Positions 28,712-42,921 of a stretch of 42,921 bases of DNA are shown in pieces. Both the position numbers and the translations under genes were made by a program. The stretch is from Propionibacteriaceae bacterium (GTDB lineage Bacteria > Actinomycetota > Actinomycetes > Propionibacteriales > Propionibacteriaceae). The notes under the pieces are model-generated. The model was not told where the DNA came from. It did no database searches and was given only the letters and a program-made list of their open reading frames with translations. Location of the stretch: contig JAUNKK010000015.1 of NCBI GenBank assembly GCA_030532825.1, forward strand, positions 1 to 42,921, given 5' to 3'. Numbering within the stretch: the stretch's first letter is position 1; every line of letters starts with the position of its first letter.

Positions 28712-28715
<4 letters not shown>

Positions 28716-30448
28716 AGTTCTTCCTCTTCCCACACGGGGGCCATGTTACGGGCCACTTGAATTTCGTCGTTGCTGACCCCGGCTGGCACCATCGGCCACA
28801 CCATCGCGTCCTTGTGGACGACGAACTCGACCACGACGGGGCGATCGTTGATCTCAAGGGCCTTGGTGATGCACTCGTCCATCTCCTCCTCGTTGGTGGC
28901 TCGCAGACCGACGCATCCCATGGCCTCGGCCAGCATCGGGAAGTTCGGCAGGTGCTCCGTGTGGAGGTCGGTGTTGGAATAGCGGGAATCGTAGAACAGG
29001 GACTGCCACTGCCTCACCATGCCGAGGGCTTGGTTGTTGATGATGGCGATCTTGATGGGGATGTTGTTGAGCACGCAGGTGACCAGTTCCTGGTTGGTCA
29101 TTTGGAAGCAGCCGTCACCGTCGATTCCCCACACGGTTGCATCGGGCTGGGCGACCTTCGCCCCCATCGCCGCCGGGACGCAGAAGCCCATGGTGCCGGA
29201 GCCACCGGAGGTCAGCCATCGCATTGGCTGCTCATGGGACAGGAAGTGGGCTGCCCACATCTGATGCTGACCCACGCCTGTGACGTAGATCGTGTCTGCC
29301 GGGCTGAGCTGACCGATGCGTTGGATGACCTCTTGAGGCGAGAGTCGACCATCCGGGGCTTCGTCCCAGCGGGGCTGGTACCGGTCCTTGACGCCGACGA
29401 GCTCCTGCACCCAGGCATCGATCTGCGGCGTCTTCTCAATCTGCGGCGTGAGCAACCCCAGGATTTGCTTGCAGTCACCGACGATCGGCACGTCGACAGC
29501 GCGGTTTTTTCCGATCTCCGCTGGGTCGACATCCGCGTGGATCACCTTGGCCTTCGGCGCAAACGAGTCCAGGCGGCCTGTAACCCGGTCGTCGAAGCGG
29601 GTACCGATCGCAATGATCAAGTCGGAGCGCTGCAATGCCCCGACGGCTGCAACCGTCCCGTGCATCCCAGGCATCCCCATGTTCAGCAGGTGCGAGTCGG
29701 GGAAGGCGCCGCGCGCCATGAGCGTCGTCACCACCGGGATACCGGTCTTCTCGACTAGGGCCGCAAGTTCGTCGAAGGCATGAGCCCGCACCACTCCCCC
29801 GCCGATATACAGCACGGGACGCTCGGCCTGCGAGATCATGCGGGCGGCGGCGCGGATCTGCCGGACGTGAGGCTTAATCGTGGGCTTATATCCGGGCAGA
29901 TCCATCTCTTCGGGCCAGTGGAACGGGGCCTTGGCCGCCAGGGCATCCTTGGCGATGTCGACGAGCACTGGTCCTGGCCGACCGGTCGATGCAATGTGAA
30001 AGGCCTCTTTCACGGCCAGCGGGATATCCTCGGTCCGCTTGATGAGGAAGCTATGTTTCGTGATCGGCATCACGATGCCGCGGATGTCGGCCTCCTGGAA
30101 GGCGTCGGTGCCGATAGCCGTCGAGTTGACCTGGCCGGTGATGGCGACGAGCGGCGTCGAGTCCATGTAGGCGTCCCCGATGGCCGTGACCAGGTTGGTG
30201 GCGCCAGGGCCGGAAGTCGCGATGCAGACGCCGACGCGCCCGCTGGCGATGGCGTAGCCCTCGGCGGCGTGCCCTGCACCCTGCTCGTGCCGGACGAGGA
30301 TGTGGCGGATCGGCGAGTCGTAGAGCGGGTCGTAGGCGGGCAGGATGGCACCCCCGGGGATACCGAAGGCCACTTCTACCTCAGCGCGCTCTAACGACTC
30401 AACCAGCGCCTCGGCGCCCGTCAGCAATTGGCCTTCTGCCTTTGACAT
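28712..30448 (-). CDS. ilvB: Acetolactate synthase large (catalytic) subunit
   Basis: ThDP-dependent enzyme that makes acetolactate from two pyruvates, or acetohydroxybutyrate with 2-oxobutyrate. The 578-aa protein begins with a short tail, then [32 protein letters not shown] with the catalytic glutamate, [28 protein letters not shown], the FAD-binding middle domain and a ThDP domain with [19 protein letters not shown]. It starts at ATG 30448 with AAGGGAG upstream and leads ilvBNC. Its 5' leader carries an attenuator with a leader peptide. Confidence 0.97.
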
Positions 30449-30489
30449 TGCTCTCCCTTCAGTTACAGCCCGGAACTACTTCGTTCAAC

Positions 30490-30526
30490 AAAAAACCCCC
30501 GGCGCCGAACTGGCACGCGAGGGGGC
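30490..30526 (-). terminator. Attenuator terminator in the ilvB leader
   Basis: On the minus strand CCCCC (30525-30521) pairs with GGGGG (30500-30496) and the intervening GCGTGCC/GGCGC strengthens the stem; six Ts follow (30495-30490). It lies about 41 bases before the ilvB start and after the leader peptide. A second hairpin, GCGTTTCGAT/ATCGAGACGC (30547-30525, one G-U pair), abuts it and shares its first stem base, giving a possible switch between folds. Confidence 0.85.
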
Positions 30527-30549
30527 GTCTCGATGAAATCGAAACGCTG

Positions 30550-30579
30550 TTAGACGATTACGAGCTGGTGGTTGATCAT
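30550..30579 (-). CDS. ilvB leader peptide (MINHQLVIV)
   Basis: ATG at 30579 and TAA at 30552-30550 enclose nine codons with Ile at position 2 and the run Leu-Val-Ile-Val at the end. Five of nine residues are branched-chain amino acids, as expected of an attenuation leader of an ilv operon. No Shine-Dalgarno is seen; the ATG lies six bases after a candidate -10, so translation is probably leaderless. Shortage of charged Leu, Val or Ile tRNA would stall the ribosome near 30565-30553 and alter folding of the downstream hairpins. Attenuation of ilvBNC is known in Corynebacterium; its operation here is inferred. Confidence 0.82.
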   Translation of the reverse strand: MINHQLVIV

Positions 30580-30585
30580 GGGTCA

Positions 30586-30614
30586 ACAATTGCGGGCCTA
30601 GCGCGCCGTGTCAA
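30586..30614 (-). promoter_or_regulatory. Candidate ilvBNC promoter
   Basis: TTGACA (30614-30609) is a perfect -35. After 17 bases AATTGT (30591-30586) could be a -10, keeping the key second A and final T. Transcription would start at or near the leader-peptide ATG, six bases on. The -10 is weak, so the exact promoter needs care. Confidence 0.55.
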
Positions 30615-30818
30615 GCACCGGTCGCGGAGCGTTCTATATATTGAGACGCCCTGCAGGGCGCGGAAGGGAACCAGGCGTGGTGGGCGGTCCCCCAGCCCTG
30701 GGGCGCGGATGCCGGACGTGCCTTCGCCCCGTTCCGAACCGCTCCCGTCGTCTCACACTGCGTCCAATCGAAGGGCCAGGGCATGGCAGCACCGAGGGAA
30801 CGACCAGTCTCCACTCGA
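30615..30818. other. Intergenic stretch between the Lrp gene and the ilvB promoter
   Basis: About 204 bases. The only clear structure is the 14-base perfect palindrome CGCCCTGCAGGGCG (30647-30660), next to an AT-rich TATATA stretch just upstream of the ilvB -35. It may be an operator or end the Lrp-gene transcript. I see no gene. Confidence 0.4.
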
Positions 30819-31862
30819 TCACACCGCAATGCTTGCGATCTCGGTACCGAACACGGGGGCAACGAGTTCGCCCTTGCAGCGGCCGTCGGCGTTCAGCAGC
30901 CACCCCATCGACTTGTGGCTGCGCAGGTGGATGATCGTCTCGTCGGGGGCCAGGCCGGGGATGGCCACGGCAATGCGCGATTCGAGGGCGCCGAGGGCGC
31001 CTTGGTAGTTGACGCGAAAGTTCACGCGCAGGTTGTTGCTGCCTGTGATCCACATGCACGACCGCAGCGCGGCTTGCTCCTTCAGGAGCTCAACGATCCG
31101 CGTCTTGTGGCTTAGGGGAACCGTCGTCATCCAAGTACATTCCAGCAGCCATCCCGCCAGCTCGGGGGCGATATCGCAGCGCATGATCACGCTCCGGTTT
31201 GCGATCAGGCGGCGCAGTCGGCGATGCACGGTGCTACTCGGCATGCCCAGGATCTGCGACAGCGAGGCGATGCTGGCCCGGCCATTGGCGGTGAGCGCTT
31301 CAGCAAGTGCTAGGTCGGCGGCATCCATCTCCCCGGATGACCGATCCGGCAACAGTTGGGGCCTGGCCTGGTGGATCTGCCGTTTCGCTAGAGCGCTGAC
31401 CTGCCAGGACTCGGCCCCGACAATCACGCTGGTGACGAGCGAGCTGCGGGTGCCATAGACACCGTCGAGGCCACCAATCCAGTCGATGATCAGGTTGGTC
31501 AGGGAGGCCATGTCGGGGGCCATCACAGTCAGGAGAATGTCGCGCCGCCCGGTTGCTTCGTCGACGCTCACGACTAGGGGGTGCCCGCATAGCTTGTGGA
31601 TGACGGGGGGAAGGTATTCGGTCCGGCAGTCCACCTCAACGATCGCGGTGAACCGGTTTTCAGGGTTGGGGTAGGTCGTGATCCACGCGAGGCCATGACT
31701 GACCAGGCGCTGCCAGTGGTTGGCTGCTGTCGTCGGCGAAATCTGGAGGATCTCCCCCGCGCGAGCCCAAGAAATCCGCGGATCGATCTGCAGCAGGTTG
31801 ACCAGGCGCAAGTCAGTTTCTTCAAGCATGACACCAAGCCGGCACGGTTCGCTCTGGGACAT
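30819..31862 (-). CDS. Double-length Lrp/AsnC-family transcriptional regulator
   Basis: A 347-aa regulator made of two Lrp-like halves. The first has an HTH at about residues 12-60 (LEETDLRLVNLLQIDPRISWARAGEIL, SPTTAANHWQRLVSHGL) and a RAM-like ligand domain up to about residue 155. The second has another HTH at about 178-225 (MDAADLALAEALTANGRASIASLSQILGMPSSTVHRRLRRLI) and a second RAM-like domain. Single Lrp proteins are about 150 aa. The ATG at 31862 has GGAGAAGG upstream; ATG 31829 is an alternative. It is divergent from the ornithine operon and lies between it and ilvBNC, so it may sense ornithine, alanine or another amino acid and control the degradation genes. Ligand and targets are inferred. 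Confidence 0.88.
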   Translation of the reverse strand: MSQSEPCRLGVMLEETDLRLVNLLQIDPRISWARAGEILQISPTTAANHWQRLVSHGLAWITTYPNPENRFTAIVEVDCRTEYLPPVIHKLCGHPLVVSVDEATGRRDILLTVMAPDMASLTNLIIDWIGGLDGVYGTRSSLVTSVIVGAESWQVSALAKRQIHQARPQLLPDRSSGEMDAADLALAEALTANGRASIASLSQILGMPSSTVHRRLRRLIANRSVIMRCDIAPELAGWLLECTWMTTVPLSHKTRIVELLKEQAALRSCMWITGSNNLRVNFRVNYQGALGALESRIAVAIPGLAPDETIIHLRSHKSMGWLLNADGRCKGELVAPVFGTEIASIAV

Positions 31863-32202
31863 ATCGCCTTCTCCGTGGCATGCGATGGGCGGATCTCAAG
31901 GTGACGGTTCCTTCGCCGGGGGTTTCCTGCAGGGCTCGACCACCGCCCCCGACCCAGGGGTAGCTTGAGGCCGAAGCGGTCAGCGATGACCTCTTCCTGG
32001 AAACAACTCGACAAGCGACCAGCCGGATATCCAACGGGATCGGGAAGCGCGACATGGCGAACATGTTAACCGCATCCCGACGGCGCCAGAGCTAGTGGTC
32101 AACGTGGCTGCAGCGAAGGCGGCACCCAGGGTCGGCGTCCCCAGGGACCGCGCTGTCCCACTCGGGGAGGCTGTCTGGTAGCGAACTAGCACAAGGAGAG
32201 AA
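31863..32202. promoter_or_regulatory. Divergent control region of the Lrp gene and ornithine operon
   Basis: A 340-base gene-free stretch between divergent genes. It should hold the promoters of both. An 8-base palindrome AACATGTT (32060-32067) lies in a locally AT-richer patch near the middle. Near the right end, AAGGAG lies four bases before the ord GTG. I cannot identify convincing -35/-10 pairs or an Lrp consensus. Confidence 0.5.
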
Positions 32203-33249
32203 GTGAACGGGAATCAGCGACGAATCCGCGTAGCCCAGTGGGGTCTCGGAGCTATGGGGCAGGGCGTGGCCAAGCTCATCTTGGCCAAGGACGGCCTGGA
32301 ACTGGTGGGGGCCCTTGACATCAACCCGGATCTGGCCGGTAAGGACGTCAGCACGGTGCTCGGCGGCGACCCCGTTGGCGTGGCCATCACTAACGATCCC
32401 GCCACCATCCTCGACTCCTCAAAGGTCGATGTCATCACGATCGCGACGACGTCTTGGGTGAAACGCCAACTCCCCGACCTCAAGGCCATCCTGGCCGCTG
32501 GAATCAACGTGGTCAGCATCGCTGAGGAAATGGCCGCACCCGAAGCCCAGAGCCCGGAGGCCGCAGCGGAGCTCGACGCCCTCGCCAAGGAGCACGGCGT
32601 CTCCATCATTGGCGTCGGTGTGAACCCAGGCTTCGTCCTAGATCATCTCGTTGTCGTGTTGACCGCCGGCAGCCAGGAGGTCACGCGCATTGAGGCGAGC
32701 CGCATCAACGACCTCAGCCCCTACGGGCAGACGGTGCTGTCGACCCAGGGGGTCGGCACCACCCCCGAGGAGTTCCAGGCCGGTGTGGCCGACGGCTCGA
32801 TCGTCGGGCATGTTGGCTTCCCCGAGTCGATTCAGCTCATCAGCGACGCTCTCGGTCTTGGCGTCGACAAGGTCGAGCAGACCCTGGAGCCCATCGTTGC
32901 CAAGCAGCCCCGCCAGGCTCGTGACCGGGTGATTGAGCCCGGCAAGGTGGCTGGCTGCAACCACATCGCCGTCGGTTACCGTGGCGGGGAAGAGGTCATC
33001 AAACTGGTTCACCCGCAGCAGGTGGATCCCGGCGCGGAGGGCGTCGACACGGGCGACTACATCACGATCTTCGGCACCCCCGAGATCCACATGTCGACGG
33101 GTCCCGAGATCGCTGGCGGCAAGGCTACGGCTGGCATCGCCGTGAACACCATTCCGCGTATTGCGGCTGCTTCGCCCGGGCTCAAGCGCATCATCGACCT
33201 GCCCTCCCCCACCGCTCTGATGGGACCCGAAGCCTACGAGCGTCGCTGA
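32203..33249 (+). CDS. ord: 2,4-diaminopentanoate dehydrogenase
   Basis: Third step of oxidative ornithine degradation: oxidises (2R,4S)-2,4-diaminopentanoate to 2-amino-4-oxopentanoate, releasing ammonia and NAD(P)H. The 348-aa protein has an N-terminal Rossmann motif (RVAQWGLGAMGQGVAKLI), DAP-dehydrogenase-like DPLA/VIT segments (VDVITIATTSW, GINVVSIAEEMAAP) and GVGVNPGFVLDHLVVVLT. The GTG start has a good AAGGAG. It opens an operon with ortAB, oraSE, a mutL-like gene and orr, which makes the specific assignment strong; by sequence alone a dihydrodipicolinate-reductase-like or amino acid dehydrogenase would be the limit. ortA follows after 22 bases. Confidence 0.92.
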   Translation: MNGNQRRIRVAQWGLGAMGQGVAKLILAKDGLELVGALDINPDLAGKDVSTVLGGDPVGVAITNDPATILDSSKVDVITIATTSWVKRQLPDLKAILAAGINVVSIAEEMAAPEAQSPEAAAELDALAKEHGVSIIGVGVNPGFVLDHLVVVLTAGSQEVTRIEASRINDLSPYGQTVLSTQGVGTTPEEFQAGVADGSIVGHVGFPESIQLISDALGLGVDKVEQTLEPIVAKQPRQARDRVIEPGKVAGCNHIAVGYRGGEEVIKLVHPQQVDPGAEGVDTGDYITIFGTPEIHMSTGPEIAGGKATAGIAVNTIPRIAAASPGLKRIIDLPSPTALMGPEAYERR

Positions 33250-33271
33250 CAGATTGGAGGCATGACGACTC

Positions 33272-33565
33272 ATGACTGTCCAAGAAACCGTCCCGGAAGG
33301 GACCTGGGTCGAGATCCAGAAAACGGTGCTGACTCCCGACGAGCGCGCCCAGGGGGTGCCCCAGGACACTGCCGCTACTCCTCTCCTGGAGTGGGTGGAT
33401 GGGTTCCTGACACATCCCGCCGCCATCGGTGACGAAGCCACTGTTCGCACCCTGATCGGACGCACCCACACGGGGGTTATCAGCCGGATCAACCCGGGCT
33501 ACACGCACAGTTTCGGCGAGACGGTAGGCGAGATTCTGACCATCGGAACGGAGGCCGAAGCATGA
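33272..33565 (+). CDS. ortA: 2-amino-4-oxopentanoate thiolase, small subunit
   Basis: A 97-aa subunit that acts with OrtB to split 2-amino-4-oxopentanoate with CoA into alanine and acetyl-CoA. It is a small all-beta protein (GTWVEIQKTVLTPDERAQGVPQDTAATPLLEWVDGFL, IGRTHTGVISRINPGYTHSFGETVGEIL) of the OrtA family. The start at ATG 33272 has GGAGG 11 bases upstream; an ATG at 33262 is out of frame. The end overlaps ortB by four bases (ATGA), so the two subunits are coupled. Assignment rests on its characteristic sequence and the operon. Confidence 0.92.
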   Translation: MTVQETVPEGTWVEIQKTVLTPDERAQGVPQDTAATPLLEWVDGFLTHPAAIGDEATVRTLIGRTHTGVISRINPGYTHSFGETVGEILTIGTEAEA

Positions 33566-34965
33566 CCGACAATTCCTACCCCGCTGTCATGGCCCGCAAG
33601 AACGAGATCATGCGCTCCGCTCTTGGGTTGGACTACGACGAGTTCAACATCAGCCCCATCGCCTTCGACTACGAGGCCATGATGGCGGCCACCGGCTATT
33701 CCCTTGAGGATGTTGCCCAGATCCAGCGTGACACCAAGGTCGGGCAAACCCCGTTGCACGAACTGCATCGGCTCACCGAGGCGGTGCGCGCCATCGCAGG
33801 GCCCGGCAAGGGGGCCCGGATCCTCGTCAAGGACGAAGCCGCCAATGCCTCAGGCAGTTTCAAAGCGCGTCGCGCCTCCCTGAGCGCCTACGAGGCGCAG
33901 AAGAAGGGGTTTGCCGGCATGGTGACGGCGACGAGCGGGAACTACGGGGCCGCAGTCGCCTCACAAGCAGCGCAGCGGGGCCTGAAGTGCATCGTGATCC
34001 AAGAGGTCTACGACTCCCATCATGTCGGGCAGCCGGAGATCGTCGAGAAGTCGCGGGCCTGCGAAGCCTACGGCGCCGAGGTCCTGAAACTGACCGTCGG
34101 CCCGGAGTTGTTCTACGTGTTGCTGCGCACCCTTGAGGAGACGGGCTACTTCAACGCCAGCCTCTACACTCCCTACGGCATCGCCGGTGTTGAGACGCTG
34201 GGTGCCGAGATCGGCCGAGAAGTGCAGGAGCGCTACGGCCGGCGGCCTGATGTTGTGGCGGTAACCCACGCGGGTGGCGGCAATCTGACGGGTACGGCTC
34301 GCGGGCTGCGCAAGGTCGGCTGCGACGACACGCAGGTCGTGGCCGTCTCGGTCGACCTGACGGGGCTGCATATGGCCTCCGATCGAGACTTCAACAACAA
34401 GTCATTCACCACTGGGCACACGGGCTTCGGCGTGCCCTTCGCCACCTGGCCTGACCGGGTCGATGTTCCACGCAACGCCGCCCGTGCCCTGCGTTACATG
34501 GATGGCTACCACCTAGTGACCCAGGGTGAGGTCTTCTACCTGACCGAGTTGCTGACCAAGCTGGAAGGCCTGGAGCGCGGCCCCGCTGGCAACACCAGCC
34601 TGACCGCGGCCGTTGCCTTGGCCATGCAGATGGACCGCGACCAGATCATCGTCGTCCAGGAGACCGAGTACACCGGCGCTGGCAAGCACCACAACAGCCA
34701 GCTGTCATTCGCCAAGAGTCGCGGCATTGAGGTTCGCCGTGGGGATCCGGCGGACAACGTGCCGGGTAAGGCCATTGTCATCCCGGAGCGTCTTGATCAG
34801 GTGGCAGGGAAGCCACTGGATCTCGAACGACTGCGCGCCAGCTACGTGAAACGGGCCGCTGAGGTGCTGCCCGCTGACCAGTGGAGCCAGGCCGATGTCG
34901 AGTTCTTGGCCGCCGACACGAACACCTCCCCCGACCATGTGCGCTCCGTGGCCCCCACCGCTTAG
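33562..34965 (+). CDS. ortB: 2-amino-4-oxopentanoate thiolase, large PLP subunit
   Basis: The PLP-dependent catalytic subunit of the OrtAB thiolase. The 467-aa fold-type II protein is related to threonine synthase, with the Schiff-base lysine K101 in NASGSFKARR, TATSGNYGAAVASQAA, and a phosphate-binding glycine-rich loop THAGGGNLTGTARG. It converts (2R)-2-amino-4-oxopentanoate and CoA to acetyl-CoA and, in the clostridial enzyme, D-alanine. A C-terminal extension (about residues 400-467) has no obvious motif. It overlaps ortA and precedes oraS by 27 bases. Confidence 0.93.
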   Translation: MTDNSYPAVMARKNEIMRSALGLDYDEFNISPIAFDYEAMMAATGYSLEDVAQIQRDTKVGQTPLHELHRLTEAVRAIAGPGKGARILVKDEAANASGSFKARRASLSAYEAQKKGFAGMVTATSGNYGAAVASQAAQRGLKCIVIQEVYDSHHVGQPEIVEKSRACEAYGAEVLKLTVGPELFYVLLRTLEETGYFNASLYTPYGIAGVETLGAEIGREVQERYGRRPDVVAVTHAGGGNLTGTARGLRKVGCDDTQVVAVSVDLTGLHMASDRDFNNKSFTTGHTGFGVPFATWPDRVDVPRNAARALRYMDGYHLVTQGEVFYLTELLTKLEGLERGPAGNTSLTAAVALAMQMDRDQIIVVQETEYTGAGKHHNSQLSFAKSRGIEVRRGDPADNVPGKAIVIPERLDQVAGKPLDLERLRASYVKRAAEVLPADQWSQADVEFLAADTNTSPDHVRSVAPTA

Positions 34966-34992
34966 GTGGTCATGGATCAGGAAGGAAAACTG

Positions 34993-35367
34993 ATGAATAC
35001 CGAGGAACAAGCCCGGAAGGCTCGCTTTGACGACCTGCGTGCCGAACTGGCGACCATGGACGATGAAGCCCTGAAGACCAGGTTCTGGGAACTGTGCCAC
35101 CAGGTGATGGAGCCGGTGGTGGAGCTGTCCCGGACCCACACCTCCCCCTCGATCGAGCGTTCCGTGCTGCTGCGCATGGGCATCGACTCAGTGACCACCC
35201 ACGCGGTGGTGGAGAACGTGCTGAACGCCGGGCTGCTCGGCAAGGGGGCCGGACACGCTGTGCTCCGCCTGGCCAAGCGAGACGGCATCTCGATCCGCGA
35301 GGCCGGGACCGCCATCGCAGAGGATCCAGCCGTGTTGGCTGGGCTGTTTGAGGAGAAGAAGCAGTGA
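34993..35367 (+). CDS. oraS: D-ornithine 4,5-aminomutase, small subunit
   Basis: The accessory subunit of the B12- and PLP-dependent aminomutase. The 124-aa protein is helical (FDDLRAELATMDDEALKTRFWELCHQVMEPVVELSRTHTSPSIERSVLLRMGIDS) and ends AGLFEEKKQ; its size matches the clostridial OraS of about 121 aa. I chose ATG 34993, with GGAAGGA seven bases upstream; earlier GTG/ATG codons at 34966-34972 lack a site. The stop overlaps the oraE start (GTGA). Confidence 0.92.
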   Translation: MNTEEQARKARFDDLRAELATMDDEALKTRFWELCHQVMEPVVELSRTHTSPSIERSVLLRMGIDSVTTHAVVENVLNAGLLGKGAGHAVLRLAKRDGISIREAGTAIAEDPAVLAGLFEEKKQ

Positions 35368-37568
35368 CAGACAAGCTGGACCCGAACACCAAGATCGACG
35401 TCGAGGCCATCCTCGAGGATCTCGAGAACTACCATCCGCCGCGCAAGGGCTGGACGTGGCGCACTGTGCCCGAGGACGGCGTCGACATGGGCGCCTTCCA
35501 CTACCGAAACATGTCGGAGCCGTTGAAGCGCAGCACCCCGATGCTGACGGCGAAGTACTTCGACAACATCGACCCGCAGCCGCAGCCGGTCATCACCTCC
35601 GAGATCGCGTCCGGGCACTTCGAGGACGACATCCGCCGTATGCGGATGGCTGCCTGGAATGGTGCCGATCACATCATGGTGATCCGCACCACCGGGCAGA
35701 GCCACATCGACGGCCTGATGGAGGGGACCCCTGAGGGGATCGGCGGGGTGCCGATCACCCGCAAGCAGATCCGGGCCAGCCGCAAGGCCTGCGACCTGAT
35801 CGAGGAGGAGGTCGGCCGACCGATCAACTTCCACAGTTACGTCTCCGGGGTCGCTGGCCCTGAGGTGGCGGTGCTGTTCGCGGAGGAGGGTGTCAACGGG
35901 GCCCATCAGGACCCGCAGTACAACGTGCTGTACCGCAACATCAACGCCTACCGCAGCTATGTCGACGCGGGCGAGGCGAAGAAGGTGATGTCCGGGGCCC
36001 GAATCTTCCAGATCGACGGCGCCCACAACGCCAACGCGACCGCCCGGCACGGCTGGAAGGTCATGCCTGAGCTCATGGTCCAGCATGGTCTGAACTCCGC
36101 CTTCTCCGTGATGGTGGGCATGCCGAAGGATCTGATCGGGCTGTCGACGGTGCCCCCGAGTGCCCCACCCGGGCCGAAACTCTGGTATGACCTGCCCTAC
36201 GCCGTGGCCCTGCGCGACTTCTTCTCCGAATACAAGATGCGTGCCCAGCAGAACACCCGTTACATCGAATCGGACCTCAACGAGGCGATCCGCACCCACG
36301 TGGTCGACACCATCATCTCGATGCTGACCAGCGCGGACATTCAGAGCACGATCACCCCCGACGAGGGCCGGAACCTCCCCTGGCACTACAACTCGGTGCG
36401 GGGTGTGCAGACGGTCAAGCAGACCTGGGCCGCACTGGACGGGATCAAGGAACTAGTCAGCATCAACCGAGAAGGCCCGCTGGGCACGATGGTGCGAGAC
36501 CTGAAGGAACGCGCGATCGGTTTCCTGACCGAGATGCTGCACGCCGGCGGCTACTTCGCCGCGGTGCAGGAAGGCTTCTTCGTCGATTCGGCTGAGTTCC
36601 CGGAGCGCAACCACGACGGCATCGCCCGCGACGGCGAGGGCGGCATCGCCGCCGACACCGTGGTGGAGCGAGACCCGGATTATCTGGCTCCCGTCTGCGA
36701 TCACTTCGGCAACAACTCGGTGCCCGAGGGCCTCGACAAGCCGTGCGATCTGATTGACGGCTGCACCCTGTGCAACCCGGAGAAGATCGTCTACATCGAC
36801 GAGCTGGACCCCGAGGACACCGTGCATCAGCGGCTTGAGCGGACCCGCCCGTACCGGAGCGGAAACCTGCTGCGGCCGGAGGCCGAGTGGGCCGGCGACG
36901 GGGTCGCCCTGGTGGAGTTCATGATCCCCGACCGCGCCGAGATCGCCGTCGAGGCAGCGCTGGAGATGGCCAAGCGAATGGGGCTGACCGAACCCGAGGT
37001 GATCAACTTGCAGGTGCTGCAGCCGGCCGAGGGGTGCTTCGTCGAAGTCAAGGGGCACGTCGGGTTCGAGATCGACAAGACCGAACTGACCATCCCCGAG
37101 AAGGTCGAGTTGCTGCCCGAGGAGGAGTTGCGCCAGTTCGTCACCGATCATGATCTGACCGTCGTTGCCGGCACCGTCGGTGAGGACGAGCACAGCGTCG
37201 GGATGCGCGAGATCCTCGACATCAAGCACGGCGGACTGGAGAAATACGGCGTCAAGTACCACTACCTGGGCACTTCGGTGCCGATCGAGAAGATGGTCGA
37301 CGCCGCGATCGAGACTGGTTCTGACGCCATCTTGATCTCGACCGTGATCAGCCACAACGAGGTGCACCGCACCATGATGAAGAAGCTAGCTGAGCTGTCC
37401 CAAGAGCGGGGTATCCGCGACAAGATGGTCCTGATTGCCGGTGGCACCCAAGTGAGCCGTGACATGGCGGGCGAGACCGGACTGGACGCCACCTTCGGGC
37501 GCGGCACCAAGGGCATCGATGTCTTGGACGCCATCGTGCGGACGATGCGCCAACGCGAAGCCGGGTGA
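35364..37568 (+). CDS. oraE: D-ornithine 4,5-aminomutase, large B12/PLP subunit
   Basis: Catalyses the radical 1,2-amino shift of D-ornithine to 2,4-diaminopentanoate. The 734-aa protein has a TIM-barrel part (SEIASGHFEDDIRRMRM, MVIRTTGQSHIDGLMEGTPEG, INFHSYVSGVAGPEVAVLFAEEG), and a C-terminal Rossmann-type cobalamin domain with DEHSVG, the DxHxxG base-off motif. H610 should ligate cobalt, and K621, eleven residues later, occupies the position of the PLP lysine (H618 and K629 in the Clostridium sticklandii enzyme). Both active-site residues are therefore intact. GTG 35364 overlaps oraS. Adenosylcobalamin is required, so the host must make or import B12. Confidence 0.95.
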   Translation: MTDKLDPNTKIDVEAILEDLENYHPPRKGWTWRTVPEDGVDMGAFHYRNMSEPLKRSTPMLTAKYFDNIDPQPQPVITSEIASGHFEDDIRRMRMAAWNGADHIMVIRTTGQSHIDGLMEGTPEGIGGVPITRKQIRASRKACDLIEEEVGRPINFHSYVSGVAGPEVAVLFAEEGVNGAHQDPQYNVLYRNINAYRSYVDAGEAKKVMSGARIFQIDGAHNANATARHGWKVMPELMVQHGLNSAFSVMVGMPKDLIGLSTVPPSAPPGPKLWYDLPYAVALRDFFSEYKMRAQQNTRYIESDLNEAIRTHVVDTIISMLTSADIQSTITPDEGRNLPWHYNSVRGVQTVKQTWAALDGIKELVSINREGPLGTMVRDLKERAIGFLTEMLHAGGYFAAVQEGFFVDSAEFPERNHDGIARDGEGGIAADTVVERDPDYLAPVCDHFGNNSVPEGLDKPCDLIDGCTLCNPEKIVYIDELDPEDTVHQRLERTRPYRSGNLLRPEAEWAGDGVALVEFMIPDRAEIAVEAALEMAKRMGLTEPEVINLQVLQPAEGCFVEVKGHVGFEIDKTELTIPEKVELLPEEELRQFVTDHDLTVVAGTVGEDEHSVGMREILDIKHGGLEKYGVKYHYLGTSVPIEKMVDAAIETGSDAILISTVISHNEVHRTMMKKLAELSQERGIRDKMVLIAGGTQVSRDMAGETGLDATFGRGTKGIDVLDAIVRTMRQREAG

Positions 37569-37575
37569 ACCTACG

Positions 37576-38925
37576 ATGCGAGTCGTCACCACCCTTGAAG
37601 TCGGGTCTACGATCACCAAGGCCAACGCCTTCGCTCTGGAAGACGGGCGGTTTCGCCACATCGGCCAGGGATTTGCCCCCACGTCGGTGAGCGAAGGCGA
37701 TGTGAAGATCGGAATGGACGCCGCGATCGCCGCGATGCGTGAAGCATCCGGCATTGAGATCGACCAGACGCAGGTCTTCGTCAACAGTTCCGCCGCGGGC
37801 GGGCTGCGGATGAGCGTGCATGGCCTGACTCAGGGGATGACGGCCCGCGCCGCCCGCGAGGCGGCGCTCGGGGCCGGGGCAATCGTGTGCCATACCACCG
37901 TCGGCGCGATCGACGACTACGACGTGGCGGATCTCCTGGAGGCCCGCCCGAACATCGTGCTGCTAGCCGGCGGGGTGGACTACGGCGAGAAGGAGATCGT
38001 CGTTGGTAACGCACAGCGGCTGGCTGAATCGGGGCTGCAGGTCCCGGTGATCTATGCCGGCAACATCGCGGTGCGTCGCCGGGTAGCTGACATCTTCGAC
38101 CAGCACGGCATCGAACTGATGTGTGCCGACAACGTCTTCCCGGACGTCGACGTGCTGCAGATCGAACCGGTGCGGCGGTTGATCCACGAGGTGTTCAACA
38201 AGCACATCGTGGGCGCGCCTGGCATGGCCAAGCTGGCCGAGATGTCGACATTCGAGATCCTGCCCACGCCAGGAGCGGTGCTGTTGGCTACCGAGATCTT
38301 CGCAGAACGGTTGGGCGACGCGCTGGTGATCGACGTCGGCGGCGCCACCACGGACATTCACAGCGTCACGGACGGATCACTTGAATGGACAAGCCGCAGT
38401 GTTGACCCTGAGCCGCGAGCGAAACGCACTGTCGAGGGCGACCTCGGCGTGTTCGTCAATGCCCGACAAGTGGCGGCCATGATGGGTGGCTCCGACGATG
38501 AGGAACGGTTGCAATTCCTGCGGGCGATCCCAGCAGACGAGCAGGAAGCCAGCGTCACGCGCTGGCTCGCCCAGCATGCCGTCGAGATGGGCATCCGTCG
38601 GCATGTGGGTTCCGTCAGCGACCTGTTCACCCCGACGGGCAAGAAGCAGATCGTCCGAGGAAAGGACCTCACGGCAGTGCGCTGGATCGTCGGCACCGGC
38701 GGGGCCCTGACCCGGATTCCCGGCGGCGAAGAGATCCTCGGCGGCATTCGACTCGGGGCTGGCGCTCGCCTCATGCCCCCGCCCGAGGCCCAAGTCCTGA
38801 TCGACCGTGATTACAGGTTCTCGGCCCTGGGCACGCTAGCCCAGGTCTATTACGACGAGGTGGGCGCTACGTTTGAAGCCTGGGTCACTCAGGAACTCGG
38901 CGAGCTGCCCCCGGAGGAGGAATGA
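37576..38925 (+). CDS. MutL/GlmL-like ASKHA ATPase, probable aminomutase partner
   Basis: A 449-aa member of the MutL/GlmL family (unrelated to the mismatch-repair MutL), found with glutamate mutase and ornithine aminomutase genes. It has ASKHA-type phosphate motifs, LEVGSTITKANAF near residue 8 and VIDVGGATTDIHSV near residue 250, and VLLAGGVDYGEKEIV in between. Such ATPases are thought to reactivate or chaperone B12 enzymes, by analogy to diol dehydratase reactivase; this has not been shown for every member. ATG 37576 lies seven bases after oraE, and the stop overlaps orr. The longer upstream frame overlaps oraE and is rejected. Confidence 0.88.
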   Translation: MRVVTTLEVGSTITKANAFALEDGRFRHIGQGFAPTSVSEGDVKIGMDAAIAAMREASGIEIDQTQVFVNSSAAGGLRMSVHGLTQGMTARAAREAALGAGAIVCHTTVGAIDDYDVADLLEARPNIVLLAGGVDYGEKEIVVGNAQRLAESGLQVPVIYAGNIAVRRRVADIFDQHGIELMCADNVFPDVDVLQIEPVRRLIHEVFNKHIVGAPGMAKLAEMSTFEILPTPGAVLLATEIFAERLGDALVIDVGGATTDIHSVTDGSLEWTSRSVDPEPRAKRTVEGDLGVFVNARQVAAMMGGSDDEERLQFLRAIPADEQEASVTRWLAQHAVEMGIRRHVGSVSDLFTPTGKKQIVRGKDLTAVRWIVGTGGALTRIPGGEEILGGIRLGAGARLMPPPEAQVLIDRDYRFSALGTLAQVYYDEVGATFEAWVTQELGELPPEEE

Positions 38926-40022
38926 TGAGTTATCCGACGCCCCGGCTGGAGATCCATCTGGACCGCATCGCAGACAACGCCGTCGCTGTGGTGAATGAGT
39001 GCGCCCAACACGGCATCCAAGTCGCGGCCGTCACGAAGGTGATGCAGGCCCACCCAGCGATATTGCGAGCCTTCGCCGACTCGGGCGCGACCATGATTGC
39101 GGACTCCCGCGTCGATAATCTGCGGCGGGTTTCGGAGGCGGGCCTGGGTCTGCCGACGCTGCTCCTGCGCGCCCCCACCCCGCGGAATGCTGCGGAGAGT
39201 GTCTACTGGGCTGATTACTCTCTCGTCTCCTCCGTGGAGACAGCCACGGCGCTCTCGCAGGCCGCTGGTTCCGCCGGGAAACCCCACGGCGTCATCATCA
39301 TGGTGGATGTCGGCGACCTGCGCGAGGGAGTATGGCCCGACCGCGCCGTCGAGGTCGTCACCCAGATCAGTCGACTCCCCCACCTAGAGTTGGCTGGTCT
39401 GGGCACCAACCTGGCCTGTTACGGCGGGGTCATCCCCACAGCCGAGAAGATGCAGCAACTCGTTGATGTCCGCGAACAGTGCCGGGAAGCGACCGGTCGG
39501 CCCCTTGACCTCTTGTCGGGCGGCAACAGCGCAAACTTGCCGCTGTTGGCCAGTGGCCAGATGCCGGACGGAATCAATCAGTTGCGGATCGGCGAGGCCA
39601 TCATCCTGGGACGCAATGTCCTCGACCGGTCTCCCTGGCCAGGCACCGGGCAGGACACCGTCGAGTTGGTGGCTGGCGCCATTGAGGTGCAGCGCAAGCC
39701 GTCTGTGCCCATCGGTGAGACGGGGCAGGACGCCTTCGGCAACACGACTTCGTTTGAGGACCGCGGCTGGCGGCAGCGGGCCATCTGCGATATCGGGCGC
39801 CAGGACGTCGCCCCCGAGGCCCTCACCCCACTGGATCCAGGTATCCAGGTGCTAGGGGGCAGCAGCGACCATCTGCTGCTGGATGTCACCGACGCTCAGG
39901 TCCCGGTCCAGGTCGGCAGCGAAATACGCTTCCGGCCCAACTACGGTGGCCTGCTGGCCCTGTCCACCTCCCCTCATGTCCTTAAACTCACCGGGCACGA
40001 CTCCGTGCCCGGACGAAACTAA
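38922..40022 (+). CDS. orr: Ornithine racemase
   Basis: Converts L-ornithine to D-ornithine, the substrate of OraSE. The 366-aa PLP enzyme has the alanine-racemase N-terminal fold: LEIHLDRIADNA, then the Schiff-base lysine K39 in AAVTKVMQAHP, MIADSRVDNLRR, MVDVGDLREGV (a typical Orr/YhfX-type block), LDLLSGGNSANLP and INQLRIGEAIILGR. The start is one of two tandem ATGs at 38922/38925 and overlaps the upstream stop (AATGATGA), with GGAGGAGG before it. The operon makes ornithine the likely substrate; alanine or serine racemase activity cannot be excluded. Confidence 0.93.
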   Translation: MMSYPTPRLEIHLDRIADNAVAVVNECAQHGIQVAAVTKVMQAHPAILRAFADSGATMIADSRVDNLRRVSEAGLGLPTLLLRAPTPRNAAESVYWADYSLVSSVETATALSQAAGSAGKPHGVIIMVDVGDLREGVWPDRAVEVVTQISRLPHLELAGLGTNLACYGGVIPTAEKMQQLVDVREQCREATGRPLDLLSGGNSANLPLLASGQMPDGINQLRIGEAIILGRNVLDRSPWPGTGQDTVELVAGAIEVQRKPSVPIGETGQDAFGNTTSFEDRGWRQRAICDIGRQDVAPEALTPLDPGIQVLGGSSDHLLLDVTDAQVPVQVGSEIRFRPNYGGLLALSTSPHVLKLTGHDSVPGRN

Positions 40023-40055
40023 CAACCCAACAAATCCAATGAAGGAGATCCCCCA

Positions 40056-41171
40056 GTGAAAATCGCAGTCCCCAAAGAGATCAAGCCGCAGGAGCATCGC
40101 GTGGGGATGACCCCCGCCGGGGTCCATCAGCTGACGGCCCAAGGTCATGATGTGCTGATCGAGCAAGGGGCGGGACTCGGCTCCGGCATCACCGATGAGC
40201 AGTACTCGGCGGCCGGCGCGACGATCATCCCCGACGCGGCAGAGGTGTGGGCTCAGGCTGAGCTCCTGGTCAAGGTAAAGGAGCCGATCGCTGCCGAGTA
40301 CCCCTACCTGCGTGACGACTTGGTGCTCTTCACCTACCTGCACCTGGCTGCCGATGAAGCTCAAACGAAGGCTTTGCTGGATGCGGGCACCACATCCATC
40401 GCCTACGAGACGGTGCAGACCGACCGCAATACCCTGCCCTTGCTTCAGCCCATGAGCCAGGTGGCGGGCCGCCTGTCGGCTTTGGCCGGCACGCACGCGC
40501 TGTACAAGCACAATGGCGGCAAGGGCCTGCTGGTGCCCGGCGTGCCCGGCGTCACGCCCGCGAAGGTGGTCGTCCTGGGTGGCGGTACCGCCGGCCGGAA
40601 TGCGGCGCTGGTGGCCCATGGTCTGCGGGCTGATGTCACCATCCTGGACATCAATCCGCTGACGCTGGAGGCTCTCGACGCCGAGTTCGGTGGTGGTGTC
40701 AAGACGCTGATGTCCACCCCCTATGCCGTCGAGGAGCAGGTGCGGGAAGCCGATCTCATCATCGGCGCGGTGCTCGTGCCGGGTGCTCGGGCGCCGAAAC
40801 TGGTGTCCAACGAGTTGGTGGCCCAAGCCAAGCCCGGATCGGTCTTTGTCGACATCGCCGTCGATCAGGGCGGCTGCTTCGCCGACACCCACGCCACCAC
40901 TCACCAGGACCCCACCTACCCGGTTCACGATTCGGTGTTCTACGCGGTCGCGAACATGCCGGGGGCGGTTCCGGTGACTTCGACGCGTGCGCTGACGAAC
41001 GTCACGCTGCCGTACGTCAGCCAGATCGCCGCGCAGGGCTGGAAGGCCGCCTGCCAGGCCGATTCGTCCCTGGCCCGCGGACTGTCCACCGTGGCAGGTA
41101 AGTTGACCAGCGAGCCCGTGGCTCAGGCCTGGAACCTGGAGTACGCACCTGCCGATCAGTTCCTGAACTGA
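40056..41171 (+). CDS. ald: Alanine dehydrogenase
   Basis: Oxidises L-alanine to pyruvate, NADH and ammonia. The 371-aa protein starts MKIAVPKEIKPQEHRVGMTP, and has K75 in VKVKEPIAAEY, H96 in YLHLAADEAQTK, both active-site residues, then the Rossmann motif VVVLGGGTAGRNAA near 170 and a C-terminal ANMPGAVPVTSTRALTNVTLPY. GTG 40056 has GAAGGAGA upstream. It lies 33 bases after orr, so it is probably cotranscribed with the ornithine genes and takes their alanine further. The thiolase in Clostridia yields D-alanine whereas Ald acts on L-alanine, so a racemase is needed. A 10-bp hairpin follows. Confidence 0.96.
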   Translation: MKIAVPKEIKPQEHRVGMTPAGVHQLTAQGHDVLIEQGAGLGSGITDEQYSAAGATIIPDAAEVWAQAELLVKVKEPIAAEYPYLRDDLVLFTYLHLAADEAQTKALLDAGTTSIAYETVQTDRNTLPLLQPMSQVAGRLSALAGTHALYKHNGGKGLLVPGVPGVTPAKVVVLGGGTAGRNAALVAHGLRADVTILDINPLTLEALDAEFGGGVKTLMSTPYAVEEQVREADLIIGAVLVPGARAPKLVSNELVAQAKPGSVFVDIAVDQGGCFADTHATTHQDPTYPVHDSVFYAVANMPGAVPVTSTRALTNVTLPYVSQIAAQGWKAACQADSSLARGLSTVAGKLTSEPVAQAWNLEYAPADQFLN

Positions 41172-41176
41172 TCTTA

Positions 41177-41200
41177 GGCCGGGGCCGTTTGGCCCCGGCC
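41177..41200 (+). terminator. Hairpin after ald
   Basis: GGCCGGGGCC-GTTT-GGCCCCGGCC is a perfect 10-bp stem six bases past the ald stop. No U-run follows. It may end part of the transcript or protect the upstream mRNA, lowering expression of the permease relative to the catabolic genes. Confidence 0.6.
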
Positions 41201-41242
41201 CCACCCAGTGGCTGTCAGCGCGAAGTTGCGACTGGAAGCCCA

Positions 41243-41264
41243 CCGGATTCACAGCCGAATCCGG
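41243..41264 (+). repeat. Inverted repeat before the permease gene
   Basis: CCGGATTC-ACAGCC-GAATCCGG is a perfect 8-bp stem, 11 bases before the AAGGAG of the permease gene. It could be a regulatory or mRNA-processing hairpin. Its function is unknown. Confidence 0.4.
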
Positions 41265-41289
41265 CTGCCTAACCTAAGGAGTTCTGACA

Positions 41290-42768
41290 ATGACGAACCC
41301 CCAAGAGGGCCTCAGCAACGAAGGCCCACGCGACGACCCGGCGGACGATACCGTGTTGAATGTCAACCCGTACGACCATCATGTCGAACCGAACGAACCC
41401 CCTCCACAGGAACAGGAGTTGCAGCGCGGGCTGAGCAACCGGCATCTCCAACTCATGGCTCTCGGTGGCGCCATCGGCACCGGCATGTTCATGGGTTCCA
41501 GCAAGACGATCAGCCAGGCCGGCCCCTCCAGCATGTTGGTCTACGCGGTGGTCGGGTTCTTCCTGTACTTCATGATGCGGGGCATGGGCGAGATGCTGCT
41601 GTCCAACCTGAAGTACAAGTCCTTTCGCGACATCGCCGAGGATCTGCTAGGCCCCGCAGGCGGATTCATCGCTGGCTGGACCTACTGGTTCGCCTGGATT
41701 GTCGCAGCAATGGCTGATCTGGCCGCGATCACGGGTTACGCCCAGTTCTGGTGGCCGGAGGTGCCGCTGTGGCTGCCGGCGGCCGCCCTCGCACTCGTGC
41801 TATTCGTCTTGAACGTCGTGGCCGTCCGGTTCTTCGGCGAGGCGGAGTTCTGGTTCGCACTGATCAAACTGGTGGCTGTCGTGGCGTTGATTATCGTGGC
41901 TGTCTGGCTGCTAGCCACCGGCTTCGTCTCCCCCGAAGGCCACGCCGCGAGGATCGAGAACCTGTGGAACGACGGCGGATTCTTCCCGAACGGCATCATG
42001 GGCTTCCTGGGCGGGTTCCAGATCGCATTCTTCGCCTTCGTTGGCATTGAGATCGTCGGCACCGCCGCCGCCGAGACCCGCGACCCCACCAAGACCCTTC
42101 CGAAGGCCATCAACGCCATCCCGATCCGCCTAGCGCTGTTCTATGTGCTGGCGCTGGCCGCCATCGTCACCGTCATCCCGTGGCGACAGGTCGTCCCCGG
42201 CGAGAGTCCCTTCGTGGCGATGTTTGGGCTGGCTGGGTTCGGGGCCGCCGCCTCCGTGATGAACTTCGTACTGCTGACCGCTGCCGCGTCCTCCGACAAC
42301 TCCGGGCTGTACTCCACCTCCCGGATGATGTACGGCCTAGCAGTCGATCGGCAGGCACCGCGCATCTTCGCTCGGTTGTCTTCGCGAAGTGTGCCGCAGA
42401 ACGCGCTGATCTGTTCCTGCCTGCTGCTGCTGAGCGGCGTGGTGTTCCTGTACACCTCCGACAGCATCATCCAGGCCTTCACGCTGGTGACCTCGATTAC
42501 CTCGATTCTGTTCTTGTTCATCTGGGCGCTGATCGTGGTGTGCTATCTGGTCTACCGGAAGACCCGCCCCCATCTGCATGCGCAGTCCAAGTACAAGATG
42601 CCCGCCGGCATCGGGATGTCGTGGGCAGTCCTCATCTTCTTCGTGGTGAGCCTGGTCATCCTGTGCTTCGACCCGGAGACGCTGCAAGCCGTCATCTGGA
42701 CGCCCCTGTGGTTCGTTATCGTCGGCATCGGCTATTTCATTCATCGGTCGGTTCAACAGCGGCACTGA
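41290..42768 (+). CDS. CycA-like amino acid permease (D-alanine/D-serine/glycine type)
   Basis: A 492-aa APC-superfamily permease (AAT family) with 12 expected membrane helices after a 45-residue hydrophilic N-terminal tail. LSNRHLQLMALGGAIGTGMFMGS, MRGMGEMLLSNLKYKSF, GWTYWFAWIVAAMADLAAITGYAQFW, FFAFVGIEIVGTAAAETRDPTKTLPKAIN, AASSDNSGLYSTSRM, YLVYRKTRPHLHAQSKYKMP. From memory these are strikingly close to E. coli CycA, the D-alanine/D-serine/glycine transporter, more than to arginine/ornithine antiporters. It starts at ATG 41290 with AAGGAG eight bases upstream. As last gene of the ornithine cluster it may move D-alanine or the starting amino acid. Substrate and direction are inferred. Confidence 0.9.
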   Translation: MTNPQEGLSNEGPRDDPADDTVLNVNPYDHHVEPNEPPPQEQELQRGLSNRHLQLMALGGAIGTGMFMGSSKTISQAGPSSMLVYAVVGFFLYFMMRGMGEMLLSNLKYKSFRDIAEDLLGPAGGFIAGWTYWFAWIVAAMADLAAITGYAQFWWPEVPLWLPAAALALVLFVLNVVAVRFFGEAEFWFALIKLVAVVALIIVAVWLLATGFVSPEGHAARIENLWNDGGFFPNGIMGFLGGFQIAFFAFVGIEIVGTAAAETRDPTKTLPKAINAIPIRLALFYVLALAAIVTVIPWRQVVPGESPFVAMFGLAGFGAAASVMNFVLLTAAASSDNSGLYSTSRMMYGLAVDRQAPRIFARLSSRSVPQNALICSCLLLLSGVVFLYTSDSIIQAFTLVTSITSILFLFIWALIVVCYLVYRKTRPHLHAQSKYKMPAGIGMSWAVLIFFVVSLVILCFDPETLQAVIWTPLWFVIVGIGYFIHRSVQQRH

Positions 42769-42789
42769 GCTTTCACAGGCCTAAGCTAG

Positions 42790-42921
42790 CGGCACGGATG
42801 TGGCATATCGCTGCCGGGGCGGGGGGGGGGGCCCAAGCCCCGGGCCCCCCCCCCCCCCCGCCGGGAGGGGGTACCGAGGGCCCCCCACAACAAAGGTGGG
42901 GGCCGGGTGGGGCCCCCCGTT
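42790..42921. other. Low-complexity contig end, probably poor sequence
   Basis: Contains an 11-base G run (42821-42831), a 15-base C run (42845-42859) and further G/C blocks, unlike anything else in the window. I see no gene or sensible repeat. Sequencing or assembly error at a contig end is the best explanation. Confidence 0.6.

Follow-up and report, generated by a model that had tools for sequence, protein, structure and literature searches.

An alanine dehydrogenase gene in the ornithine degradation operon of a Propionibacteriaceae bacterium points to a possible one-substrate fermentation

How an operon for the oxidative degradation of ornithine might be used in an actinobacterium when an alanine dehydrogenase gene (ald) has been added to it is the question raised by contig JAUNKK010000015.1 of the Propionibacteriaceae bacterium assembly GCA_030532825.1. 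The whole stretch that was analyzed (42,921 nucleotides, positions 1 to 42,921 of the forward strand) is referred to here as the window, and the host genome (G000) comprises 3.33 Mb in 219 contigs, of which the window contig is C139. A sequence-only reading of the window had described eight genes sharing one order and strand with overlaps or short gaps, and had interpreted them as a complete oxidative ornithine pathway in a high-GC actinobacterial background with ald added. Both descriptions are borne out by family scores and gene order. The eight genes are all present and intact, without internal stops, on the plus strand and in the order claimed, with 4-bp overlaps at the OrtA/OrtB, OraS/OraE and MutL/Orr boundaries and gaps of 0-33 bp elsewhere as far as ald. 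The interpretation favored here, with a probability of roughly 0.6, is that this pathway is run as a fermentation in which alanine is carried through alanine dehydrogenase (Ald) to propionate. The features of the locus are as follows.

32203-33249, + strand: ord, 2,4-diaminopentanoate dehydrogenase (NF040740, 488.5 bits, cut-off 400)
33272-33565, + strand: ortA, 2-amino-4-oxopentanoate thiolase small subunit (NF040739, 115.2 bits, cut-off 70; PF22010)
33562-34965, + strand: ortB, pyridoxal phosphate subunit of the 2-amino-4-oxopentanoate thiolase (NF040741, 818.6 bits, cut-off 550)
34966-35367, + strand: oraS, D-ornithine 4,5-aminomutase alpha subunit (Pfam OAM_alpha PF16552, 131.8 bits, cut-off 29.7)
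35364-37568, + strand: oraE, D-ornithine 4,5-aminomutase with TIM barrel, dimerization and B12 domains (NF040743, 1304.6 bits, cut-off 800)
37576-38925, + strand: MutL/GlmL-like gene, Or-4 (PF13941, 480 bits; NF040744, 515.2 bits, cut-off of 600 not reached)
38922-40022, + strand: orr, putative ornithine racemase (NF040742, 397.5 bits, cut-off of 480 not reached; position matches relatives)
40056-41171, + strand: ald, L-alanine dehydrogenase, a second paralog linked to the operon (TIGR00518, 525.9 bits, cut-off 391.85)
41290-42768, + strand: CycA-like APC amino-acid permease, candidate alanine or ornithine transporter (D-Ser/D-Ala/Gly transporter model, 675.7 bits, cut-off of 732 not reached)
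30819-31862, - strand: double-Lrp/AsnC regulator (Pfam HTH_AsnC-type in two stretches plus AsnC_trans_reg)

With orr, oraS, oraE, ord, ortA and ortB all intact in one cluster, the window holds the full gene set for oxidative ornithine degradation. The pathway as set out in excerpts of a published account (PMC8803604) consists of racemization by Orr, an amino shift by OraSE, dehydrogenation with ammonia release by Ord, and thiolysis to acetyl-CoA by OrtAB. In the host, Orr would racemize L-ornithine, OraSE would shift the amino group in the D-ornithine 4,5-aminomutase step, Ord would yield 2-amino-4-oxopentanoate by oxidative deamination, and OrtAB would split this compound with CoA into acetyl-CoA and D-alanine, with the GlmL-like protein probably maintaining the activity of the B12 enzyme. 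Alanine would be racemized by Alr, which is encoded on another contig of the host genome, or by Orr in a secondary reaction, then converted to pyruvate by the operon Ald; the propionibacterial methylmalonyl-CoA route would reduce pyruvate to propionate. Since D-alanine is the other thiolase product of the known pathway, an L-specific Ald can act only after racemization.

The balance to acetyl-CoA, pyruvate and ammonia that had been proposed from the sequence thus stands in refined form, with the racemase step inserted and a possible continuation to propionate. The overall conversion, ornithine (C5H12N2O2) + 2 H2O -> acetate + propionate + 2 NH3, is exact in C, H, N, O and electrons; reduction of pyruvate to propionate takes four electrons, and Ord and Ald give two each. 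Because the equation closes in atoms and electrons, a Stickland partner would not be required, and one added gene would, if this is true, give self-sufficiency to a B12-dependent pathway whose best-known hosts are Stickland fermenters. Propionate fermentation is typical of Propionibacteriaceae, and methylmalonyl-CoA mutase, the enzyme covered by the search of the propionate route, is encoded in the host genome. The enzyme activities and the flux to propionate are predictions from sequence. It is improbable that the module instead supplies nitrogen and acetyl-CoA from ornithine or D-ornithine during respiration or mixed growth. No feature of the sequence specifies the electron acceptor, and with the amino-acid synthesis genes leuC, ilvC and cimA also in the window, the host is not an obligate fermenter of amino acids. 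B12 radical chemistry nevertheless fits anaerobic life, the family's propionate fermentation would presumably serve as a sink, and the mutase for that route is encoded.

The evidence that Ald belongs to the pathway comes from the history and placement of its gene. Ald scores above cut-off in 37 of the 39 genomes of the host's genus, and the three members with an operon ald (G000, G026, G039) each keep a second ald elsewhere. The tree of Ald proteins contained 25 loci, with the genus represented by the 12 best-scoring of its 37 alds together with the second copies of these three genomes (that of G026 entered twice). The operon Alds form a clade of four rows (support 100/99) that is completed by G056, a genome of another genus of Propionibacteriaceae with the same arrangement of ald in the operon, and the second copies group with the other alds of the genus. 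Given this separate clade, recent duplication of the chromosomal ald was rejected as the origin of the operon copy. The protein retains K75, H96 and D270, which we take to be the catalytic residues of alanine dehydrogenase.

The 18 genomes of the family with oraE differ in where ald is placed. Four have it within the operon, in the slot between orr and the permease gene; five Cutibacterium-type genomes have it beyond the Lrp gene and on its strand, two of these showing only 36- and 44-residue fragments where the contig begins; and one has it 2.3 kb past the permease gene. In seven, the flanks that were read show no ald, and one more has a contig that ends in oraE. In two Bacillota loci, of Ruminococcaceae D13 (L077) and Peptococcaceae UBA6129 (L084), ald stands directly behind orr; the Alds of these two loci are long branches that meet in the tree. 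The association of the ornithine pathway with different Ald lineages suggests that alanine, the product of the pathway, is put to use.

These placements also bear on the chief competing explanation, that degradation is of the ordinary kind, with D-alanine from OrtAB as an end product that the CycA-like permease exports or the cell wall uses, and with ald as a bystander acting on other alanine. A permease of the D-Ser/D-Ala/Gly group lies behind orr or ald in 15 of 16 Propionibacteriaceae stretches from other genomes, with or without ald, the seven genomes with no ald in the flanks that were read agree with this account, and Clostridium sticklandii excretes both L- and D-alanine according to the portions seen of a published study (PMC3091704). 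Set against it are the separate lineage of the operon ald, its retention in the same slot between orr and the permease gene in four genomes of two genera even though three genus members own a second ald (the fourth genome was outside that search), and the presence of ald near ornithine genes in Cutibacterium-type genomes and the two Bacillota loci. The bystander explanation is considered unlikely, and the passage of alanine through Ald to propionate is preferred. The operon-linked paralog is what is new here, and it merits testing together with the closed balance that it would allow.

Several observations weigh against this preference. The known product is D-alanine and the dehydrogenase is L-specific, with no dedicated alanine racemase in the operon, and the CycA-like permease could export alanine instead. 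Four genomes of the host's genus have oraE without an operon ald, which shows that the pathway can do without this copy; their other ald could serve. PrdA of D-proline reductase gave no match in the host or in any of four other Propionibacteriaceae genomes, and matched in all five Bacillota genomes, in just two of them above cut-off. Its absence is a weak sign, since three of the five Bacillota searched, all with an ornithine cluster, also lack a PrdA above cut-off, and a missing PrdA is thus not special to the host. Arginine deiminase, a candidate source of ornithine, was rejected because it gave no match in the host genome (3 of 14 control genomes matched, one above cut-off), so ornithine is probably taken up or made otherwise. 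Finally, the parts seen of one report describe secretion of L-ornithine by arginine-consuming strains of Cutibacterium acnes (PMC12993555). As Cutibacterium has the cluster and some C. acnes secrete ornithine nonetheless, possession of the genes is no proof of ornithine consumption in every state.

With regard to enzyme identity, NCBIfam cut-offs are passed by Ord, OrtA, OrtB, OraE and the alanine dehydrogenase. OraE, OrtB and Ord score as ornithine enzymes and not as enzymes of other substrates, and a lysine 5,6-aminomutase identity is ruled out for OraE, which scores 1305 bits as the ornithine enzyme and 140 bits against lysine 5,6-aminomutase beta. Residues 5-732 of OraE align with the solved enzyme 3kow, and K621, H610 and E334 stand at the positions of Lys629, His618 and Glu338 of the A. 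sticklandii enzyme (mapped by eye onto the 3kow alignment with an offset of 3), where Lys629 is the pyridoxal phosphate lysine and His618 presumably the B12 histidine. Lys629 and Glu338 are residues of the A. sticklandii ornithine aminomutase in those portions of the literature that were available. No NCBIfam model scored above cut-off for OraS (best 20 bits), which was identified through Pfam; its true start may lie a few codons further downstream. Orr (397.5 of 480 bits) and the GlmL-like Or-4 (515.2 of 600) fall short of their cut-offs, the latter with scores computed on a frame begun 18 bp before the ATG at 37576 that was picked by eye. The same shortfall is seen for Orr in two of two Propionibacteriaceae and one of one Chloroflexota relatives, with two of two from Bacillota above cut-off, and for Or-4 in one of one Propionibacteriaceae and one of one Chloroflexota, with one of one from Bacillota above. 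The low scores seem to reflect clade, that is, narrow models rather than a different function; ornithine is the putative substrate of Orr, and the MutL/GlmL-like protein is probably an accessory or reactivation ATPase of the aminomutase.

The unit extends beyond the span first described, which ended one gene short and missed the permease gene that starts 118 bp beyond ald. On the other side, a regulator with two helix-turn-helix units and one AsnC ligand-binding domain is divergent from ord, and the unit as a whole, with the Lrp gene at one end and the permease gene at the other, spans approximately 30.8-42.8 kb. The double-Lrp protein is a probable regulator of the module, and the permease, whose direction and substrate are inferred, is named CycA-like and no more precisely because the transporter cut-off was not reached. 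Scans for promoters and terminators gave nothing above shuffled sequence, leaving the transcript ends unfixed and adding nothing for or against the single transcript proposed from the sequence; no Rfam RNA, riboswitches included, was found at E 0.1 within 30000-42921. In an alignment of ten Lrp-ord spacers, a short block near the Lrp start (31885-31896; TGGG, two bases, GAT, then mixed) is common to most, and the remainder of the spacer is unconserved. This block may represent an operator or the promoter of the regulator itself, or it may encode a longer N terminus of Lrp.

The sequence-only reading had regarded the operon as unusual for an actinobacterium, a claim of rarity that is weakened by its distribution. 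OraE scores above cut-off in 18 of 198 Propionibacteriaceae genomes, including seven of the 39 in the host's genus, and in eight of the 396 genomes of a phylum sample that includes the host. The same gene order occurs in Cutibacterium and Propionibacterium, and the enzyme is already in print. On human skin, Propionibacteriaceae are the dominant family encoding D-ornithine aminomutase in the excerpts at hand of one study (PMC9600381), and another, in the part available, lists the enzyme's E component as entry 78 among the 79 genes of one P. acnes strain that are predicted to be pseudogenes (PMC3666418). As far as these sources go, the pathway was thus already known from actinobacteria at the enzyme level. 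The OraE of the window shares 96% identity with that of a Propionibacteriaceae metagenome-assembled genome (MAG) and 95% with that of Arachnia propionica OH887_COT-365. An Lrp gene stands in front in all 16 Propionibacteriaceae stretches from other genomes, in pieces in two (L114, L119).

Variants and signs of decay were also seen. No ortA or ortB was found between ord and oraS in L116 (G062) and in L043 of Austwickia chelonae; OrtB scores above cut-off elsewhere in both genomes, and the thiolase genes seem to have moved out of the cluster twice. In Cutibacterium namnetense (G064), oraE has an in-frame TAG (L017/L026) and orr falls into two tblastn pieces (L026), and the Lrp and permease genes of C. 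modestum (L025) are in pieces. Within the 17 kb read of L154 (G328, family f49) only oraS, oraE, mutL and orr were found.

The suggestion that the operon is clostridial is apt for function and, to judge by the trees, not for descent. Of 471 candidate stretches in the genome collection, 459 encode a relative, and the best 80 were kept. Trees were built from 95 candidates, leaving out loci whose best single tblastn piece covered at most 80% of the query, by a short search with midpoint rooting, and carry long-branch warnings for MutL and Orr and an uneven-composition warning for Orr. In all five the window falls inside a set free of Bacillota: OraE (35 of 94 rows, support 100), OrtB (30 of 78, support 100), Ord (30 of 81, support 99), Orr (30 of 74, support 100) and MutL (32 of 82, support 100). 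The other members of these sets are Chloroflexota, Myxococcota, Bdellovibrionota and one or two Riflebacteria-type MAGs, joined in some trees only by Acidobacteriota and Spirochaetota. A single clade (support 100) unites the 18 OraE rows from Propionibacteriaceae. The OraE of Austwickia, together with G336, lies in the same large set as the window, yet apart; that of family f31 (L155, G256) lies among Bacillota beside a Peptococcaceae MAG; and the placement of that of family f49 (L154) is unsure. These scattered placements imply repeated acquisition of the gene by the phylum, or else frequent loss. GC is even along the window, the relative synonymous codon usage of the ten module genes correlates at 0.97 with that of ten other window genes, and GC at third codon positions is slightly higher in module genes (0.735-0.887) than in the others (0.641-0.826). 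GC and codon use give no sign of recent import, and with the five protein trees they rule out recent transfer from Clostridia.

The genomic site suggests that the module moves. In six congeners, a gene 83-88% identical to window 28712-30448 (called ilvB by eye, and adjoining ilvC) stands away from the ornithine cluster, and in five of them it is followed by genes for an SH3-like protein (by eye) and a protein of 1143 amino acids; neither was seen in the stretch read of the sixth (G017, without oraE). In the host, the entire Lrp-to-permease unit (contig positions 30649-43327) lies between ilvB and these two genes, and DNA similarity to the congeners ends at approximately 30.6 kb and resumes at approximately 43.4-43.6 kb. 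Sequence is unbroken across the left junction, and the right junction spans a run of ten Ns just past the window end; the G and C runs at 42820-42921, before this scaffold gap, are a probable sequencing or assembly artifact. The upstream flanks of the unit are common to L022 and L027, and the flanks on both sides are common to L023, L106, L108 and L109; no flank gene was found to be common to the window and these groups, some flanks having been read short. The unit thus seems to occupy three places within one genus. No tRNA adjoins the module, so a tRNA as landing site was rejected, and no Rfam element marks the site.

Judging from its relatives, the host would live in mouths. In dental plaque there is a trade in ornithine, which Streptococcus gordonii exports and Fusobacterium nucleatum uses, as described in the portions seen of two studies (PMC9426547, PMC4571851). 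It can be proposed tentatively, at somewhat less than even odds, that some oral propionibacteria with a portable ornithine module, their own Ald and the propionate pathway carry out a redox-neutral one-substrate fermentation, taking ornithine directly from arginine-degrading mouth streptococci without a Stickland partner. If true, a propionibacterium would be a further consumer of plaque ornithine and a source of ammonia and propionate.

Comparison with known systems places the window among clusters of many phyla, and recurrence of one gene order across them means that a chance arrangement is no explanation. The nearest relatives outside Propionibacteriaceae, in Chloroflexota, Myxococcota and others, have the window's order and, on contigs long enough to show it, end in orr; in nine Chloroflexota loci, some of them short, the window queries found no Lrp, ald or CycA-like neighbor. 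Clusters of Cutibacterium and Propionibacterium mostly share the window's order, with the same Lrp gene in front and the same CycA-like permease. They differ in that ald lies on the far side of the Lrp gene in the five Cutibacterium-type genomes, where the full-length proteins belong to a different Ald clade, and in that no ald was seen nearby in P. australiense and oral taxon 192. Three Clostridium loci (L065, L066, L078) have an order of ord-ortA-ortB-oraS-oraE-mutL-orr identical to that of the window, the C. sticklandii cluster itself presumably does as well, and the core genes of the C. sticklandii/Clostridioides difficile-type cluster are the same. The available parts of the C. sticklandii study indicate that this organism has no alanine dehydrogenase gene and that its Stickland reaction uses ornithine together with proline or lysine (PMC3091704). 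Relative to that cluster, the window adds ald and a CycA-like permease gene after orr and a double-Lrp regulator in front.

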